DNA from: a virus
Length of the DNA stretch: 26,525 nt
Direction: 5' to 3' (one strand)
IMG/VR virus record: IMGVR_UViG_3300042939_000177
Span: 1-26,525 of that record
A model generated the notes under the pieces. That model was given only the letters and a program-made list of their open reading frames with translations. It did not search any database and was not told the DNA's origin. This document shows positions 3,108 to 25,435 of this stretch, piece after piece; position 1 is the stretch's first letter, and each line of letters starts with the position of its first letter. The translations under genes and the position numbers were made by a program.

Positions 3108-3296
3108 TTACTTACCCTCGCTGATAGACTTGATGTAATCTGCTACTTGCTCGTACGTATCGGCAGAAACAATCGGTGTCCAGATATCGCCTGTCTCAAC
3201 GCCACAATAGTCAGCTTGATAGCCGCCGCTTGTCTTGATTATATCGAAACCATTGATATCAAGCTTAATGCTAAATGTTTGCAAGGTTCGTATCAT
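3108..3296 (-). CDS. Hypothetical small protein, first gene of leftward operon
   Basis: A 62-aa product, MIRTLQTFSIKLDINGFDII..., with AGGGAG as SD before ATG 3296-3294. It looks like a small alpha/beta protein: an N-terminal pair of strands and a C-terminal helix (DTYEQVADYIKSI). It is the first gene after the predicted leftward promoter and is the head of a string of small genes that ends with the lysis cassette. Function unknown. Confidence 0.65.
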   Translation of the reverse strand: MIRTLQTFSIKLDINGFDIIKTSGGYQADYCGVETGDIWTPIVSADTYEQVADYIKSISEGK

Positions 3297-3335
3297 GATT
3301 ATTCTCCCTAGTGTGGCTAGCTTAATTGCTAGCTA
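3294..3335 (-). repeat. Repeated intergenic block, copy 2
   Basis: Partner of the block at 2707-2746, upstream of the 62-aa gene. It contains CATGATTATTC, CCCTAGT and two GCTAGC boxes separated by six bases. Here it lies just downstream of the predicted leftward promoter, so it forms the 5' leader of the operon. Confidence 0.5.
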
Positions 3336-3342
3336 TACTTAT

Positions 3343-3369
3343 ATAGTACTGTACTATGACTCATAGTAC
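3343..3369. promoter_or_regulatory. Palindromic operator in leftward promoter
   Basis: GTACTATGACTCATAGTAC at 3351-3369 is a perfect palindrome with 9-base arms around a single C. A further ATAGTAC half-site at 3343-3349 makes a second palindrome with GTACTAT 3351-3357. Three half-sites therefore lie between and over the -10 and -35 of the predicted leftward promoter, the expected layout of a repressor-binding region. Confidence 0.65.
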
Positions 3370-3371
3370 AA
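3343..3371 (-). promoter_or_regulatory. Predicted leftward promoter
   Basis: Reading the minus strand, TTGTAC (-35, plus-strand positions 3366-3371) and TACTAT (-10, 3343-3348) are separated by exactly 17 bases. The hexamers match the sigma-70 consensus only partly (3/6 and 4/6), but position and spacing fit the leftward operon that starts at 3296. A perfect palindrome fills the spacer, so regulation by a repressor is expected. Confidence 0.5.
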
Positions 3372-3411
3372 TATAAAAGATGCACAAAACAACAAAAGAA
3401 AGTAAAATACA

Positions 3412-3455
3412 ACTACGCAAGATTTTGCATAGCACTACGCAAGATTTTGCATAGT
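3412..3455. promoter_or_regulatory. Two tandem near-palindromic operators before the HTH gene
   Basis: A 21-base sequence is repeated exactly at 3412-3432 and 3434-3454, so the copies are 22 bp apart (two helical turns, same face). Each is a near-palindrome with arms ACTAcGCAA and TTGCaTAGT around GATT, the outermost base pairing only in the second copy. The pair ends 16 bases before the regulator start codon, which suggests autoregulation. A weak -10-like TAAAAT at 3403-3408 would place the transcription start on the first copy. Confidence 0.7.
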
Positions 3456-3470
3456 TGGGATAAGTAGCAA

Positions 3471-3761
3471 ATGAATTCGGCATCCTTGCAAGTGACTAGA
3501 CTGAAAGTAGCAGACAAATGGGGAGTAGGATCGTATAAGCACCTATCGCCATGGCCTAAAGGTAATCTATATAGATACGTACGGCGTAGTATGGGACTTA
3601 GTCAAAGTAAGATAGCAGATATCTTCGGATGCAGTCTTAAAGCTTGGAAGTATAGAGAGAGTACTAACAGACACTTATGCATCGCTGAAATACTCGCCTT
3701 GCACGAGCTATCAGGTCTCACGGATTCCGAGTTTATGAAATTGCTGAATGATATCGCATAG
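3471..3761 (+). CDS. Helix-turn-helix transcriptional regulator
   Basis: A 96-aa protein whose C-terminal two-thirds (about residues 31-95) is a compact helical DNA-binding domain. The helix-turn-helix reads SQSKIADIFGCSLKAWKYRE, with the expected Ala and Gly positions of an XRE/Cro-type motif. It is followed by two helices ending SEFMKLLNDIA. The N-terminal 30 residues are basic and have no motif. The ATG has only a weak SD (GGGA). It is the only plus-strand gene in the control region and sits between the leftward small-gene operon and the rightward structural operon, directly downstream of two tandem near-palindromes it probably binds. I infer a phage repressor or late-switch regulator; nothing shows whether it governs lysogeny. 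Confidence 0.8.
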   Translation: MNSASLQVTRLKVADKWGVGSYKHLSPWPKGNLYRYVRRSMGLSQSKIADIFGCSLKAWKYRESTNRHLCIAEILALHELSGLTDSEFMKLLNDIA

Positions 3762-3953: not shown

Positions 3954-4385
3954 ATGTCAGATGATGAAAATATAAAAAATCCTGAAATTGAGGTTTTGCC
4001 ACCTGTATTGAGGGCGAAGCCGCATTTACCGAATCATGTTAGGGATGAACAGTTAGCGTTACAGATACGGGACATGGGCAAGGTAGGGCTGACTAAGACG
4101 CAAGCGGCTAACTGTGCCAGGATTAGTACTTATGTATTGGATAAGTATTATTTAGAGGATTACATGCAGGGTGTGAGTGGGATGCAGCGGGGTTTAGCGT
4201 CTGTGGCTGTGTCTGAGGCTATGAATGGGAATACGCCGATATTGTTGCATTTGTTAAAGACTAGGTTAGGTTGGAGTGAGCAGCAGGTGATCGAGCACAT
4301 AGGCGAGGTGCGAGCAGTAGTTTCTAATAAGCCATTATCTAAGGAGGAATTTATACAGAAGTATCTAGCAAAGGATGAGGAATAA
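3954..4385 (+). CDS. terS: Terminase small subunit
   Basis: A 143-aa acidic-to-neutral protein at the canonical place just before the large terminase. Residues about 40-66 form a helix-turn-helix (GLTKTQAANCARISTYVLDK), followed by a helical oligomerisation region. It carries the LLHLLKTRLGWSEQQ segment typical of small terminase subunits, where it precedes the C-terminal arm that contacts the large subunit. The subunit recognises the packaging site and recruits the motor. The start has GGAG eight bases upstream. Unusually, two zinc-ribbon genes separate it from terL. Recognition is by motif and position, not by search. Confidence 0.8.
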   Translation: MSDDENIKNPEIEVLPPVLRAKPHLPNHVRDEQLALQIRDMGKVGLTKTQAANCARISTYVLDKYYLEDYMQGVSGMQRGLASVAVSEAMNGNTPILLHLLKTRLGWSEQQVIEHIGEVRAVVSNKPLSKEEFIQKYLAKDEE

Positions 4386-4740: not shown

Positions 4741-4919
4741 TGTTTCGTTGTCCGGTTTGTGAGCATTTAAGTATGCAAAAAGGTGGTAGTGAAGATACCT
4801 GTTATGGGATATATGCAGGGCTAAGTGGTGAGTATTTTGTTTGTGCTAACCCGACTTGTAATGTTGACCGTATTTACGGGGATAACTGCGTACTAATGTT
4901 AGACAAGAACAAGTGTTAA
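4740..4919 (+). CDS. Zinc-ribbon protein 2, Ogr/Delta-like
   Basis: I prefer a GTG start at 4740: AGGAG lies at 4729-4733 and the codon overlaps the preceding stop by one base. An ATG at 4701 in the same frame would add 13 residues. The protein begins directly with the ribbon: FRCPVCEHLS ... YFVCANPTC, i.e. C-P-x-C, 27 residues, C-x4-C. This is the layout of the Ogr/Delta zinc finger of P2-like phages (C-x2-C-x22-C-x4-C), which activates late transcription through the RNA polymerase alpha subunit. The similarity is in cysteine spacing and the CP.C / C.N..C flanks only. The end overlaps the terL start by seven bases. Other options are a terminase accessory or a general nucleic-acid-binding ribbon. 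Confidence 0.62.
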   Translation: MFRCPVCEHLSMQKGGSEDTCYGIYAGLSGEYFVCANPTCNVDRIYGDNCVLMLDKNKC

Positions 4920-6331
4920 GCGATAGTACAAATATTGATGAGAATGTTGTATGGGCACCCCAAGCTGGGCCGCAGGAGGCTTTTGTTGAGTGTCCTATAA
5001 CGCTAATAGGGTATGGCGGCGCTCGTGGCGGAGGTAAGACGGATGGTGTATTGGGCAAGTTTGCTATTAAACAAGAGCAAATGGGCGCTGACTTTAACGC
5101 TATCTTTTTCCGTAAAGAGCTGCCTCAAGCTGATGACCTTATTGAACGTGCCAAACAAATATACATCCCCCTTAAAGCGCATTGGCAAGACCAGAAAAAA
5201 CAGTTTACCTTCCCATCGGGTGGTCGCCTACGTTTTAGACCTTTAGGCAACGATACCGATGCTGAAAAGTACCAAGGCCAAAACCTATCAGATTGCGCTA
5301 TAGAAGAGGCAGGTAACTATGCCGACCCATCCCCTATCTGGAAGCTATTTGGAGCGCTACGAGGCAAGGGAGGCGGTCAAATCATTTTAACTTTTAACCC
5401 TGGTGGTGTAGGGCATAGTTGGTTAAAAGAACTGTTTATTAAGCCCGCTCCTAAAGGTATGCAGGTGCTTAAAAAAGAGCTACCTAACGGGGCAAGCTTT
5501 GATTACATTTACATTCCTAGCCGAGTGCATGACAATCAAATACTGTTAGCTAAAGACCCTGATTATATAAATCGCCTGCACATGGTTGGTAGTCCTGAGC
5601 TGGTGCGGGCATGGCTAGAAGGAGATTTTGAAATCCATGAAGGCAGTTACTTTCCTGAGTTTAGCTCTAAACATATTATTAGCCCTTTCAACATTCCCAA
5701 ACACTGGCCTAAATATATGGGGTATGATTGGGGGTATCACAGTCCTTTTGCTGCTGTCTGGGGTGCCGTTAGTAGTGGACGTACTGACGGAGGTGCTGAA
5801 GTACCGTATCCTAAAGGCTCAATTATCATCTATAGAGAAATCTGGGGCAAAGGAGTGGATAACGTCAATCAAGCTGAACGAATCGCAGCACTATCAATAG
5901 GCGAAAATCCAATCTGCGCCGCTGACCCATCCATATTTAAAAACCAAGGCGGGCCTACCATAGCTGACCAATTACACCGAGTATTTGATAAGTATAAACA
6001 CCCCTACTTTAGAGAGGCTGATAACGAGCGAGTTTCGGGCTGGTCGCAAATCAGGCAACGACTAATTGCTAGTCCACCTTTGCTATACATATTTGCTACT
6101 TGCCCATATTTGCTAGAAACCTTACCATCGATGACTATAGACAAACGAAAACCAGAGGACATGGACACCACAGGTAACGATCACGGTGCCGATGCCTTAC
6201 GATATTTGTGTAAAGCTAGACTTATAGACTCTAAGTGGGATGAGCCAGAACAAACAGTGCAAAAAGGCATGATAAAACTACAGAGCTATATTTCTAAGAT
6301 GAGAGCTAAAAACAAAAGGCCGCAAATATGA
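4913..6331 (+). CDS. terL: Terminase large subunit (ATPase and nuclease)
   Basis: A 472-aa DNA-packaging motor protein. It starts at GTG 4913 because no ATG lies before the conserved WAPQAGPQEAF adenine-binding segment. The ATPase domain has Walker A GGARGGGKT (residues 35-43), Walker B with catalytic Glu in DCAIEEAG (127-134) and coupling motif TFNPGG (160-165). The RNase H-like nuclease domain follows with Asp272 (GYDWGYH), Asp338 (AADPS) and Asp427 (HGADALRY). All key residues are present, so the enzyme should be functional. It hydrolyses ATP to translocate DNA into the prohead and cuts concatemers. It overlaps the zinc-ribbon gene by seven bases and the portal gene by four. Confidence 0.95.
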   Translation: MLSDSTNIDENVVWAPQAGPQEAFVECPITLIGYGGARGGGKTDGVLGKFAIKQEQMGADFNAIFFRKELPQADDLIERAKQIYIPLKAHWQDQKKQFTFPSGGRLRFRPLGNDTDAEKYQGQNLSDCAIEEAGNYADPSPIWKLFGALRGKGGGQIILTFNPGGVGHSWLKELFIKPAPKGMQVLKKELPNGASFDYIYIPSRVHDNQILLAKDPDYINRLHMVGSPELVRAWLEGDFEIHEGSYFPEFSSKHIISPFNIPKHWPKYMGYDWGYHSPFAAVWGAVSSGRTDGGAEVPYPKGSIIIYREIWGKGVDNVNQAERIAALSIGENPICAADPSIFKNQGGPTIADQLHRVFDKYKHPYFREADNERVSGWSQIRQRLIASPPLLYIFATCPYLLETLPSMTIDKRKPEDMDTTGNDHGADALRYLCKARLIDSKWDEPEQTVQKGMIKLQSYISKMRAKNKRPQI

Positions 6332-21590: not shown

Positions 21591-22808
21591 ATGGCAACAT
21601 TAGAAGAAGCGTTATACGGCCTCAACTTTACACCGGCAGAGAATCCGTACGGTATTGCTGCTACGCAAGTAGGTCAGCTAGGACCAAAGCTAATCAATCC
21701 TTACGGCTCTACAGGCCAGGCGGTCGGGATAGGTTTAGGTACGATTCTTCTTCAATCGTTGCTAGGTTATCAGGCGCGTTCTCAGGCCGCACAAGAAACG
21801 CTACAGCTTAACACTCTAGCTAACCAAATGCAGGAGCTTAGCGACGCTCAAGCCAGGACTGATTTTATCACTGGCGTAGAAGATCCTATGTATCAGAGCA
21901 GGCTATCTACGCTTGCTACAGCGCTAGGTGCTCAGGAAAGAGCACGTAAAGCCGATTTAGCAAAACTTCGCGGAGTAGCTGATTTAGATGTAGAAAAACA
22001 GCGTGCGATTGATGCAGGTGTTCCTTTGTCTGAATTACCAGCTTTAGATAAATTGCGAACTGAAAGACGCAAACAGTTATTTGGATTGCCTGTGAGTGAG
22101 TCATCTACTATAGAAGCGCCAACAGCAGGTAGTACATTTCAAACTGGCAGTGCAGATGCTTTGCTAACAAGTCCTGAAATGCAGCAAGTTTTAACTAAAG
22201 CAGACAAAGAGGCGTTAGCGGCTAGAGCTAAACTAACAGTAGCACAAAGGGAAGAAACAGATAAACTACGCAAAGAATTTAGCGGACTTCCAGAAGTTAA
22301 AAATTACAGTTTAATTGATACAGCAGCGCGAGTAGTTACAAAGGCAGTTAAAGATCCAAGTGCTGTAGCAACGCAAGAACTTGTAAGACGCGCAGTACAG
22401 TTAATCGAGCCAGGTATGGCTGTACGTGAAGGTGAGCAAGCTGCAATTATGAACAGTCAAAGTATTCCCGATCAGTTCAAAGGCCAGTTGCAGAAGGCAT
22501 TGACTGGAGAAGGTGGGCTACAAGAAGACGTGCGTGCTGGTATTTTGCGAATTGCTCAACGTGCGTATGAGTCACAAGCAGAGCGTTACAAATCCACTAA
22601 AGACTTTTATGAAGGCATTGCTAAAGAGCGCAATTTACCTGTTAAAGAGATTTCTTACCTTGGCGAAAGTCAGCCGTGGAGTGCATTTGAAGTGCAAAAC
22701 AAAGAAACTCAATTAAATAACATCTTAAGCCAATTAAAGAGCACGACAGACCCAGCTAGAATTAAAGAACTAAAACAACAAGCAGCAACTATTTATAGCG
22801 GTAAATAA
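21591..22808 (+). CDS. Internal virion / ejection protein candidate
   Basis: A 405-aa largely helical protein starting three bases after its neighbour. The N-terminal part has an apolar segment (GQAVGIGLGTILLQSLLGY, about residues 43-61) that could insert into membrane. The C-terminal half carries EETDKLRKEFSGLPEVKNYS, ... AVQLIEPGMAVREGEQAAIM and SQAERYKSTKDFYEGIAKER, a pattern I know from a widespread family of phage internal structural proteins. It overlaps the next gene by a single base (TAATG). I infer it is co-packaged and ejected with the 875-aa protein. Confidence 0.7.
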   Translation: MATLEEALYGLNFTPAENPYGIAATQVGQLGPKLINPYGSTGQAVGIGLGTILLQSLLGYQARSQAAQETLQLNTLANQMQELSDAQARTDFITGVEDPMYQSRLSTLATALGAQERARKADLAKLRGVADLDVEKQRAIDAGVPLSELPALDKLRTERRKQLFGLPVSESSTIEAPTAGSTFQTGSADALLTSPEMQQVLTKADKEALAARAKLTVAQREETDKLRKEFSGLPEVKNYSLIDTAARVVTKAVKDPSAVATQELVRRAVQLIEPGMAVREGEQAAIMNSQSIPDQFKGQLQKALTGEGGLQEDVRAGILRIAQRAYESQAERYKSTKDFYEGIAKERNLPVKEISYLGESQPWSAFEVQNKETQLNNILSQLKSTTDPARIKELKQQAATIYSGK

Positions 22809-25435
22809 TGGCAACAGCAGAGGAGTTATTTGCACAGATTCAAAGCTACGAAGCGCCGACAATTCCAGCGGATAAGGCCGCCGAGTTTGCGGCTGCTCGT
22901 CAAGCAGTGCAAGAAGCGCAGAGCAACGTTGATTTGTATGGGCGCTTGGGTACTGGGCTATCGTTTGCTGGGCAGGGATTAACTCTTGGATTGGCAGACG
23001 AAGCATTAGCAGGATTGAGTGGTCTCTTTGGCGGTCCATCTTACTCCGAGTCTTTAGCAGCTCAACAAGCTCAACGTGAGCAAATGCGGACAGAATATCC
23101 TACTACTGCTCTTGTTTCAGAGTTAGCTGGGGGCGTTGCTGGGGCTTTGCCAGCCGCTGCAATTAGTGCGCCAGGATTAGGTTCTCGATTATTGTTAGGA
23201 GCAACAGGCAAGGCAGCTCCTACAGTCGCGCAACTTGCAGCTATCGGCGCGACTCAAGGCGGTATTTACGGAGCAGCTTCTGCAGAACCAGGAGAGCGAT
23301 TAGCTGGCGGTTTAATGGGCGGTGGTATTGGTGGCGTTGCTGGCCCAGTGGTGGGGAAAGCTGTTCAATATGGCACTGAAGCCTTGGGGGGTGTTCTTGG
23401 TCGTGCTGGTACGACACTTGGCAGCGAGCGTGGGGCTATAAGCTTTGGTGGCCCTAAGTACACCCCAGCAGAAGTGCAACTAGCAAAAGTATTATCTCAA
23501 ACAGCGCCAGAAAATTTACGTGGAGCTGAAGAAGCGTTTATTCGTGCTGGACAATATGGCAAGCCAGTATTCTTACCTGAAGCTGTAGAATCGCCAGCAC
23601 TTTATCAGCAAGCTAAGTTAATCGCGAACTACCCTGCTTCAACTGAAATAGCTAAAACAGCAATAGAGGAACGCGCTGCTGATGCTGTTAATCGCATTGC
23701 ATTAACTCTTGATGTAGTTAGCCCTGATAGAAATGTAACATCAGGTGCAAACAAATTAGTCGAAGGAGCAAAATCACTACTTGATGAATTAGGCGTAGCA
23801 CGCAAAAAAGCTACTCAAGGACTGTACGAAGCTGCTTTTGAAAAGACGCCACAGTTAACGGCTGCTGATGCCGTAGAACTAGTACAAACAAATCCGCGTA
23901 TTCAACAAGCAATCAAAGCTGTTAAAAAAGAATTGCCTGAGTTGGTAGATCAACCAGATACAAGCATAGAGGTACTACATCAGGCACAGCAATATCTTAA
24001 CGGAAAAGCACGAGCGGTTAAAAACAAGTTTACTGCTGGCAAAATTAAAGATGCGCGCACTGAGTTAATGGCTGCAATTAAAGCAGAGTCACCTGATTAT
24101 GCTAAAGCGACAGACACTTTTGCTAAAATGTCTAAAGGACTTACCGCGAAAGAGGAAAGCAAGATTGGGTTTCTTGCTAATGTAAGCCCAGATAAGCCTG
24201 GAACTATTGGCAGAGTATTTGCGCTAGACGCGGATGTGATTGCTAGTTTACGCGATGACTTTAAGCAAGATGGAAAATTGGCAGAATGGGAATCTGGTGT
24301 CAGGTCTTATTTGCAACGCGCACTAGAACAAGCACAAGACAACCGCAATCCTATTAACAAGATTATTGGTTCGCCTGGTTTGCGTGACAAACTAAAAGCA
24401 GCTTTAGGCGATAAATACGATGCCATTATTGAACCACTTACTATTGAGCAAAATATCCTTAAAGGCCAGCGCGAATACTTTGCTGGATCGCCAACAGAGC
24501 CATTACGACAAACTGGTGAATCACTTAAAGAAAGCATTGGGGCAATTAAATCAGCAGTATCAGCGGCAAAAGACCCTATTGGTGCTGCTGGTAAGTTTCT
24601 TTCTAAGGCGTTGGGTAGCGAACAAGATGAAAAGTTTTATCGTGACTATGCCAAGTTGTTGTTTAGTGCTCCAGAGCAAGGGCTAGAAACGCTCGGTAAC
24701 GTAAGTAAATTGGCCGATGCATTACGAGCAGCACGAGTAGCCGGAGAACAAGCTGGTGGTATTGGTGGCGCTGCTGCTGGTCGTGAAGCTGCTGCTGGCT
24801 TGGATATTGTCGGCGAATCGGGCAAGGTAAGACGGCAAGAAATGCTAGGCATGGCGGGTGCTGGTACTGCTGCTGCTGTAGTCGCTCCAGAACTTGAAGA
24901 CTTATTTAATCAAATACAAAGTTACGAGCCTGCTGCACCTACTCCGCAACCTGAAGCCGTTAGTCGTAGCAAAGAAAAAGGTAAGGGCATCCCCACTAAA
25001 GAAGTAAGTGCATTGCTTGATGAGGTGCCACGCGAATATGGAATCAATCCAAGATGGGTTAAAGCTATTGCCCAAGTCGAATCAAGTTTTAACCCTAAAG
25101 CTGTTGGACCAAAAACTCGATTTGGTCAAGCGCAAGGATTGATGCAACTTATGCCAGCTACGGCAAGGGCATTGAAAGTTGAAAACCCATTTGACCCTAA
25201 GCAAGCGATTGAGGGTGCTAGTAAATTATTAGTTGAACTAGACAATGCTTACGGCAAATATAAAGACAAGCGGTTGTTGTTTGCTGCATATAACTCTAGG
25301 CCGTCAACAGTAAAGGCAGCTATTAGTCAAGCTAAAGCCGCAGGTAAGGATATTACTTGGGAAAACATAGCTGAATATATGCCAATTGAAACACAGAATT
25401 ACGTTAAAAAAGTAACAAAACTAATAGAAGCATAA
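22808..25435 (+). CDS. Large ejection protein with C-terminal lytic transglycosylase
   Basis: An 875-aa virion protein. It opens with EELFAQIQSYEAP, then a Gly/Ala-rich membrane-compatible region (about residues 40-200) and a long helical body. From about residue 735 there is an SLT-type lytic transglycosylase domain: the probable catalytic Glu758 in QVESSFNPKAVG, AQGLMQLMPATARAL and FAAYNSRPSTVKAA (usually AYNAGPxxV in the family). The motif LFNQIQSYEP recurs at residues 699-708, just before that domain. Such enzymes locally open peptidoglycan during genome entry. With the lysis enzyme at 200-676, the phage encodes two transglycosylases for opposite steps. The gene ends with an SD for the fibre gene. 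Confidence 0.86.
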   Translation: MATAEELFAQIQSYEAPTIPADKAAEFAAARQAVQEAQSNVDLYGRLGTGLSFAGQGLTLGLADEALAGLSGLFGGPSYSESLAAQQAQREQMRTEYPTTALVSELAGGVAGALPAAAISAPGLGSRLLLGATGKAAPTVAQLAAIGATQGGIYGAASAEPGERLAGGLMGGGIGGVAGPVVGKAVQYGTEALGGVLGRAGTTLGSERGAISFGGPKYTPAEVQLAKVLSQTAPENLRGAEEAFIRAGQYGKPVFLPEAVESPALYQQAKLIANYPASTEIAKTAIEERAADAVNRIALTLDVVSPDRNVTSGANKLVEGAKSLLDELGVARKKATQGLYEAAFEKTPQLTAADAVELVQTNPRIQQAIKAVKKELPELVDQPDTSIEVLHQAQQYLNGKARAVKNKFTAGKIKDARTELMAAIKAESPDYAKATDTFAKMSKGLTAKEESKIGFLANVSPDKPGTIGRVFALDADVIASLRDDFKQDGKLAEWESGVRSYLQRALEQAQDNRNPINKIIGSPGLRDKLKAALGDKYDAIIEPLTIEQNILKGQREYFAGSPTEPLRQTGESLKESIGAIKSAVSAAKDPIGAAGKFLSKALGSEQDEKFYRDYAKLLFSAPEQGLETLGNVSKLADALRAARVAGEQAGGIGGAAAGREAAAGLDIVGESGKVRRQEMLGMAGAGTAAAVVAPELEDLFNQIQSYEPAAPTPQPEAVSRSKEKGKGIPTKEVSALLDEVPREYGINPRWVKAIAQVESSFNPKAVGPKTRFGQAQGLMQLMPATARALKVENPFDPKQAIEGASKLLVELDNAYGKYKDKRLLFAAYNSRPSTVKAAISQAKAAGKDITWENIAEYMPIETQNYVKKVTKLIEA

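Follow-up and report, generated by a model that had tools for sequence, protein, structure and literature searches.

At positions 3343–3455 of the window (the whole stretch of DNA analysed, a virus record of 26,525 bases), a divergent control region carries two different types of operator-like element around one helix-turn-helix (HTH) gene, and sequence comparison suggests that these unrelated elements probably have two readers. An earlier note had proposed both the coordinates and the divergent arrangement, and the sequence elements that it named are confirmed. One is a perfect palindrome at the predicted leftward promoter, PL; the other is a tandem pair of near-palindromes in the predicted leader of the HTH gene. 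The features of the region are as follows.

3108–3296, minus strand: 62-aa gene that leads the leftward operon, within a block that differs in the close relative L001
3316–3333, minus strand: GCTAGC-N6-GCTAGC, an inverted repeat ahead of the ribosome-binding site within the 5′ leader of the leftward transcript; a hairpin in many relatives, with changing sequence
3343–3371, minus strand: predicted PL core, read from the sequence (−35 TTGTAC at 3371–3366, 17 bp, −10 TACTAT at 3348–3343)
3350–3370, no strand: perfect 21-bp palindrome TGTACTATGA-C-TCATAGTACA, operator candidate at PL, from the inverted repeat, its symmetry in L001 and enrichment in relatives
3381–3408, plus strand: predicted promoter of the HTH gene, a consensus match only (−35 TGCACA, 16 bp, −10 TAAAAT)
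3412–3433, no strand: first near-palindrome ACTACGCAAGATTTTGCATAGC, identical in L001 and with related pairs in six relatives
3434–3455, no strand: second near-palindrome ACTACGCAAGATTTTGCATAGT, a sequence repeat 22 bp past the first
3471–3761, plus strand: 96-aa XRE/Cro-type HTH regulator, from profiles, model and homologues; recognition helix at residues 56–65 in the predicted model
3954–4385, plus strand: candidate small terminase gene (terS), the next rightward gene, placed by synteny ahead of the large terminase gene

Two element types in the intergenic region

The 19-bp palindrome described earlier (GTACTATGACTCATAGTAC) is present at 3351–3369, and its perfect symmetry even reaches 21 bp. 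Relatives measure 33–36 kb and about a quarter of the phage genome probably lies outside the window; within the window the palindrome is present once and is the sole one with perfect arms of at least 8 and a loop of 0–1. Its length alone is not decisive, because shuffling the whole window produces arms of at least 9 in 41 of 200 trials; when dinucleotides of the promoter zone only are shuffled, about 1% of shuffles equal the observed palindrome. The extra half-site also claimed for PL does exist, as ATAGTAC at 3343–3349, but it is mostly the predicted −10 hexamer, since PL reads TTGTAC, 17 bp, TACTAT. Clade-A relatives have TTGACA...TACTAT at the PL position, and L001 has TATAAT. Both promoters, PL and that of the HTH gene, are predictions from consensus matches only, and such matches number 15 in the window against 16.7 in shuffles, which is chance level.

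Directly behind PL, the leaders of many relatives contain a 5′ hairpin, seen in the window at 3316–3333 and also at about 2726–2743. Stem mismatches across relatives are of the G-T type in five cases, of the A-C type in none and of other types in four; these mismatch types suggest that the element at 3316–3333 acts as an RNA hairpin.

On the other side of the region, ACTACGCAAGATTTTGCATAG occurs exactly twice, at 3412–3432 and 3434–3454, 22 bp apart as previously reported, and no shuffle yields any copy of this repeat pair. Each near-palindrome is built 8-4-8 with a single non-complementary pair (C opposite A). Related pairs of the form CTAYGCAA-N3/4-TTGCRTAG are found in six other relatives: where the HTH gene starts in L037, L003, L054 and L055, and near recT, between two leftward genes and far from the HTH homologue, in L051 and L053. 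When all viral contigs were scanned for such pairs, six stretches turned up, five in phages of this HTH family and the sixth in an apparently unrelated contig (L056). Transcription from the predicted rightward promoter (TGCACA, 16 bp, TAAAAT) would start at the first repeat; the sequence AGTAAAATA at this promoter is present in clade-A relatives too. A terminator role for the repeats was considered and rejected, as both strands fold and a terminator scan gave about the chance level.

The HTH regulator

The AlphaFold model of the 96-aa protein (pLDDT 85; helices 33–41, 45–52, 56–65, 71–81 and 85–95) has a five-helix lambda-repressor-like fold with an HTH. Its top Foldseek/VIA matches are mostly XRE-type, with Z up to 7.9, a middling value, and its structural neighbours include restriction controller proteins, DdrO, P22 c2 and P2 C. 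The model thus points to an XRE/Cro fold, a match that is generic for XRE domains. The best Pfam profile, Xre-like-HTH, scores 16.2 bits against a curated cut-off of 25.8, and the match to PHROG 2328 (repressor) has an E-value of 0.003; relatives reach about 1e-5. A homologue sits immediately before terS in nearly all terS relatives with sufficient upstream sequence, and each of 18 relatives' records holds exactly one. None occurs in 50,697 named phage records, and the island of the window has no significant match among named phages.

Across residues 32–96 of 75 homologues, variability is highest at positions 56 and 57, where the recognition helix begins. By a register offset of about 21, partly our own reading of the model, they would align with R35 and T36, two residues through which C.Esp1396I contacts bases (PMC4041747). 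Oddly, the predicted DNA-contact residues of the regulator appear to change faster than the operator candidates beside them.

A near-twin phage separates the two elements

L001 provides a natural experiment. Its outer flanks are 99% identical to those of the window on both sides, and between its divergent segments lies a nearly identical island. DNA identity falls to 54% in the 57-aa leftward gene, 71% in the 62-aa gene, 58% in the PL leader, 67% in the palindrome and 52% over HTH residues 1–70, the DNA-binding domain; identity is 100% over the 45-bp repeat element, which lies inside an identical run of 85 bases. The palindrome of L001, CATTATGA-T-TCATAATG, differs by two symmetric substitutions (C-G to T-A and T-A to C-G). 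Both changes in its right arm are paired with complementary changes in its left arm and the dyad symmetry is intact; dyad symmetry is therefore likely to be under selection. The recognition helix reads LKAWKY in the window and VDTWRN in L001. Because this helix changes while the repeats do not, the HTH protein is unlikely to read the repeats, and because the HTH domain and palindrome differ while the repeats are identical, two readers are likelier than one. The joint change in the window and L001 is one event, and the two phages form a ready-made pair for studying how a phage operator and the small repressor that reads it change together.

Conservation and reassortment in the wider family

In pooled counts over 62 relatives, three palindrome classes far exceed expectation upstream of the HTH gene: CTATG-N2-5-CATAG occurs 9 times against 0.05 expected, YTATGANTCAT 12 times against 0.15, and CTGTNNACAG 20 times against 0.25. 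Downstream of the HTH gene, the PL palindrome classes show no enrichment in the same pooled set. Single-phage significance is weak (5 of 60 below 0.05), and only the pooled motif counts are strong. A regulatory role of the palindrome at PL is supported by this enrichment together with the compensated changes in L001. Clade-A phages have the TATGANTCATA core at PL, upstream of the PL −35, and one of them near its HTH promoter too, so that the same operator type appears to stand at both divergent promoters there; the palindrome of the window is found once only. Clade-A phages also hold CTATGA and TTATGA half-sites together in one genome, and the difference between the palindromes of the window and L001 therefore need not mean altered specificity.

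When relatives are paired by PL similarity (at least 75% identity), 22 of the 45 pairs differ at both residue 56 and residue 57, and their HTH domains are often just 33–49% identical; in L005 and L003, PL is 96% and the HTH 38% identical. These 45 pairs are not independent, and several separate lineages agree (L003/L005, L085/L088 and L122/L134). PL and HTH cassettes thus reassort freely. As 22 of the 45 pairs differ at both predicted contact residues, the palindrome is not generally coupled to the HTH, and because promoter and HTH cassette reassort, the HTH protein is only the leading guess for the reader of the palindrome. If promoters truly ignore changes in their regulator, this would conflict with the common view that repressor and operator evolve together. 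Large terminase matched 211 relatives in the viral collection, which makes this a common family, and the named phage records searched contain no relative of its HTH, so that the switch could be studied across a broad natural series.

Gene order and lifestyle

Rightward, the HTH gene is followed by the terS candidate, the large terminase gene (4913–6331, PHROG 2) and the portal gene; the leftward side of the window holds small genes and a lytic transglycosylase. In G005, a nearly full-length relative, the leftward operon contains an Erf-type annealing protein/recombinase, a RusA-type resolvase and small genes; the genes for an O-like initiator and for a second small HTH protein (HTH_17) lie nearby on the other strand. 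Because of the Erf protein and the resolvase, the leftward operon is early and not just a lysis operon. The earlier description of a switch between a small-gene/lysis operon and the regulator was therefore too narrow. Gene content puts the early genes on the left and the late genes (terminase and virion) on the right. Neither a tyrosine integrase (PF00589) nor a serine recombinase (PF00239) was found in the 17 records searched, and an S24 domain (PF00717, CI-type repressor) was absent from 17 records that include nearly full-length relatives, the window itself being incomplete. A virulent lifestyle is likely and, because integrase and CI-type repressor were not found, the region is probably the early/late switch of a probably virulent phage rather than an immunity region. 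Scanning 84,980 genomes with a TerL profile identified no host and no close prophage, as only two MAG contigs matched, at 48% identity.

Several observations concern other genes. The window encodes an 875-aa protein (22808–25435) whose end looks by eye like a lytic transglycosylase (YGINPRWVKAIAQVESSFNPKAVG...), a separate SLT protein at 200–676, and a small protein (1098–1421) that looks secreted, carries a WGTGYS motif and recurs in the early operons of the distant relatives G005, G001, L053, L037 and G014. A large terminase reading frame of about 767 aa in L055 (1497–3800) has an intein-like insertion (CFVGSTKVV...VVKNC). Relatives also carry lambda-like iteron arrays (L067:8280–8350, L073:4200–4270, L059:4940–5040, L066:6259–6320 and L037:1712–1775), in which palindromes of phage-specific sequence recur every 21–24 bp inside or just behind an O-like initiator gene; L037 has four DnaA-box-like TGTGGATAA repeats.

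Which protein reads which element

From the elements, their conservation pattern, the gene order and the predicted fold, all of them shown here, we infer the promoters, binding, repression and readers of a tentative preferred reading: an early/late region in which the HTH protein represses PL through the palindrome and another protein acts on the repeats. PL would drive the leftward early operon, and the rightward promoter would drive the XRE/Cro-type HTH gene, the first gene on the late side (terminase and virion). The 21-bp palindrome would serve as a dimeric-repressor operator over the PL core promoter and shut off early transcription. The HTH protein, acting like Cro, would be its most economical reader in the window, and has a modest lead as such. 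The tandem 22-bp elements, two helical turns apart where the HTH transcript begins and in its leader, would form a second, unrelated operator, read by a different protein that sets the amount of HTH protein.

It is quite possible, if doubtful, that the HTH protein reads neither operator, the palindrome being the site of a factor that many relatives share (a regulator of the host, or another one of the phage) while the fast-changing cassette has different targets, such as other promoters, genes of the host or incoming phages. PL operator classes do stay constant while HTH contact residues are swapped, the two contact residues vary more than any others of the folded domain, and one relative carries the second small regulator (HTH_17) and an O-like initiator; yet no other reader was identified, the HTH gene is fixed beside the region in nearly all relatives examined, and palindrome and HTH changed together in L001. 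The replacement of base-contact residues between close relatives whose own promoters stay is also the reason for a rather unlikely reading, in which the HTH cassette diversifies fast, has its targets outside its own control region and leaves both operators to other regulators. With similarly low probability, such targets could be promoters of the host or those that drive the early genes of competing phages.

The earlier note had left a choice between one protein reading both elements and two regulators that may compete. That the HTH regulator alone reads both, through ACTAYG half-sites at differing spacing, is improbable: the outer letters ACTATG and ACTACG/ACTATG are common to the window, L037 and L003, but the half-site spacing differs by 7 bp, the repeats are invariant despite the change from LKAWKY to VDTWRN, and in L051 and L053 they lie far from the HTH gene. 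The unchanged repeats of L001 and the distant ones of L051 and L053 favour two regulators. Nor is it supported that the shared ACTAYG letters make the elements one type, for they amount to five or six letters only and the L001 palindrome (CATTATGATTCATAATG) lacks ACTATG. An alternative to a DNA operator, that the tandem element is a hairpin in the HTH mRNA controlling translation or decay, is about as hard to credit. The leader RNA of the window folds strongly (z −7.3) just upstream of the ribosome-binding site, but both strands fold equally, as expected of any tandem palindrome; mismatches in relatives are both C-A and U-G in the mRNA sense, with no bias, and the element of L051 and L053 lies between two leftward genes. 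Finally, the size (19–20 bp) and spacing (21–22 bp) of the near-palindromes resemble the iteron arrays of relatives, which would make them lambda-type replication-origin iterons. This is highly improbable, because two element-bearing relatives, G005 and L037, hold a different, lambda-type array in addition to the CTAYGCAA element; the arrays of G005, G007, G009, G010, G014 and L037 lie in or just behind the O-like gene and have other sequences.

Comparison with known systems

A limited literature search found no description of this phage family's switch, and its parts recall several known ones. As in the lambdoid cI/cro region, promoters diverge, palindromic operator candidates lie over core promoters and relatives carry lambda-like replication genes (O-like initiator, Erf and RusA-type resolvase); unlike it, the records searched have one HTH gene only, no CI/S24 protein and no integrase, and the regulator is on the late side. 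In phi29, divergent early and late promoters are controlled by protein p4. The likeness to a phi29-type switch, in which a virulent phage has a control element where its early and late operons diverge, is one of working only.

In fold, the predicted model comes nearest (Z 7.9) to the restriction-modification C proteins (C.Esp1396I, PMC4041747; C.Csp231I, PMC3115060), some of which use two palindromic operators set apart. The elements here are not GACTtatAGTC pairs (consensus in PMC3115060), however, and no adjoining restriction-modification genes were recognised; the restriction-controller reading that the fold matches had prompted was dropped on operator sequence and gene context.

The nearest case described is the immB region of PY54 and N15, with Cro and a single OR3 operator (PMC4488713); it shares a small all-helical HTH protein and, between divergent genes, one palindrome (present once in the window). 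In PY54, Cro recognises a single palindrome and discriminates operators that differ only in peripheral base pairs, two of which set specificity, and CI reads unlike sites (PMC4488713). Here too, related operators differ at peripheral base pairs and unlike second sites occur, which CI reads in PY54; the sequence pattern in the window and L001 would agree with peripheral-base specificity, but reassortment argues against a general rule. In contrast to PY54 and N15, no CI-type partner (Peptidase S24) or integrase was found, and the HTH gene heads the late operon beside terS. The region represents an ordinary type of phage switch; the regulator gene that adjoins it changes unusually fast.
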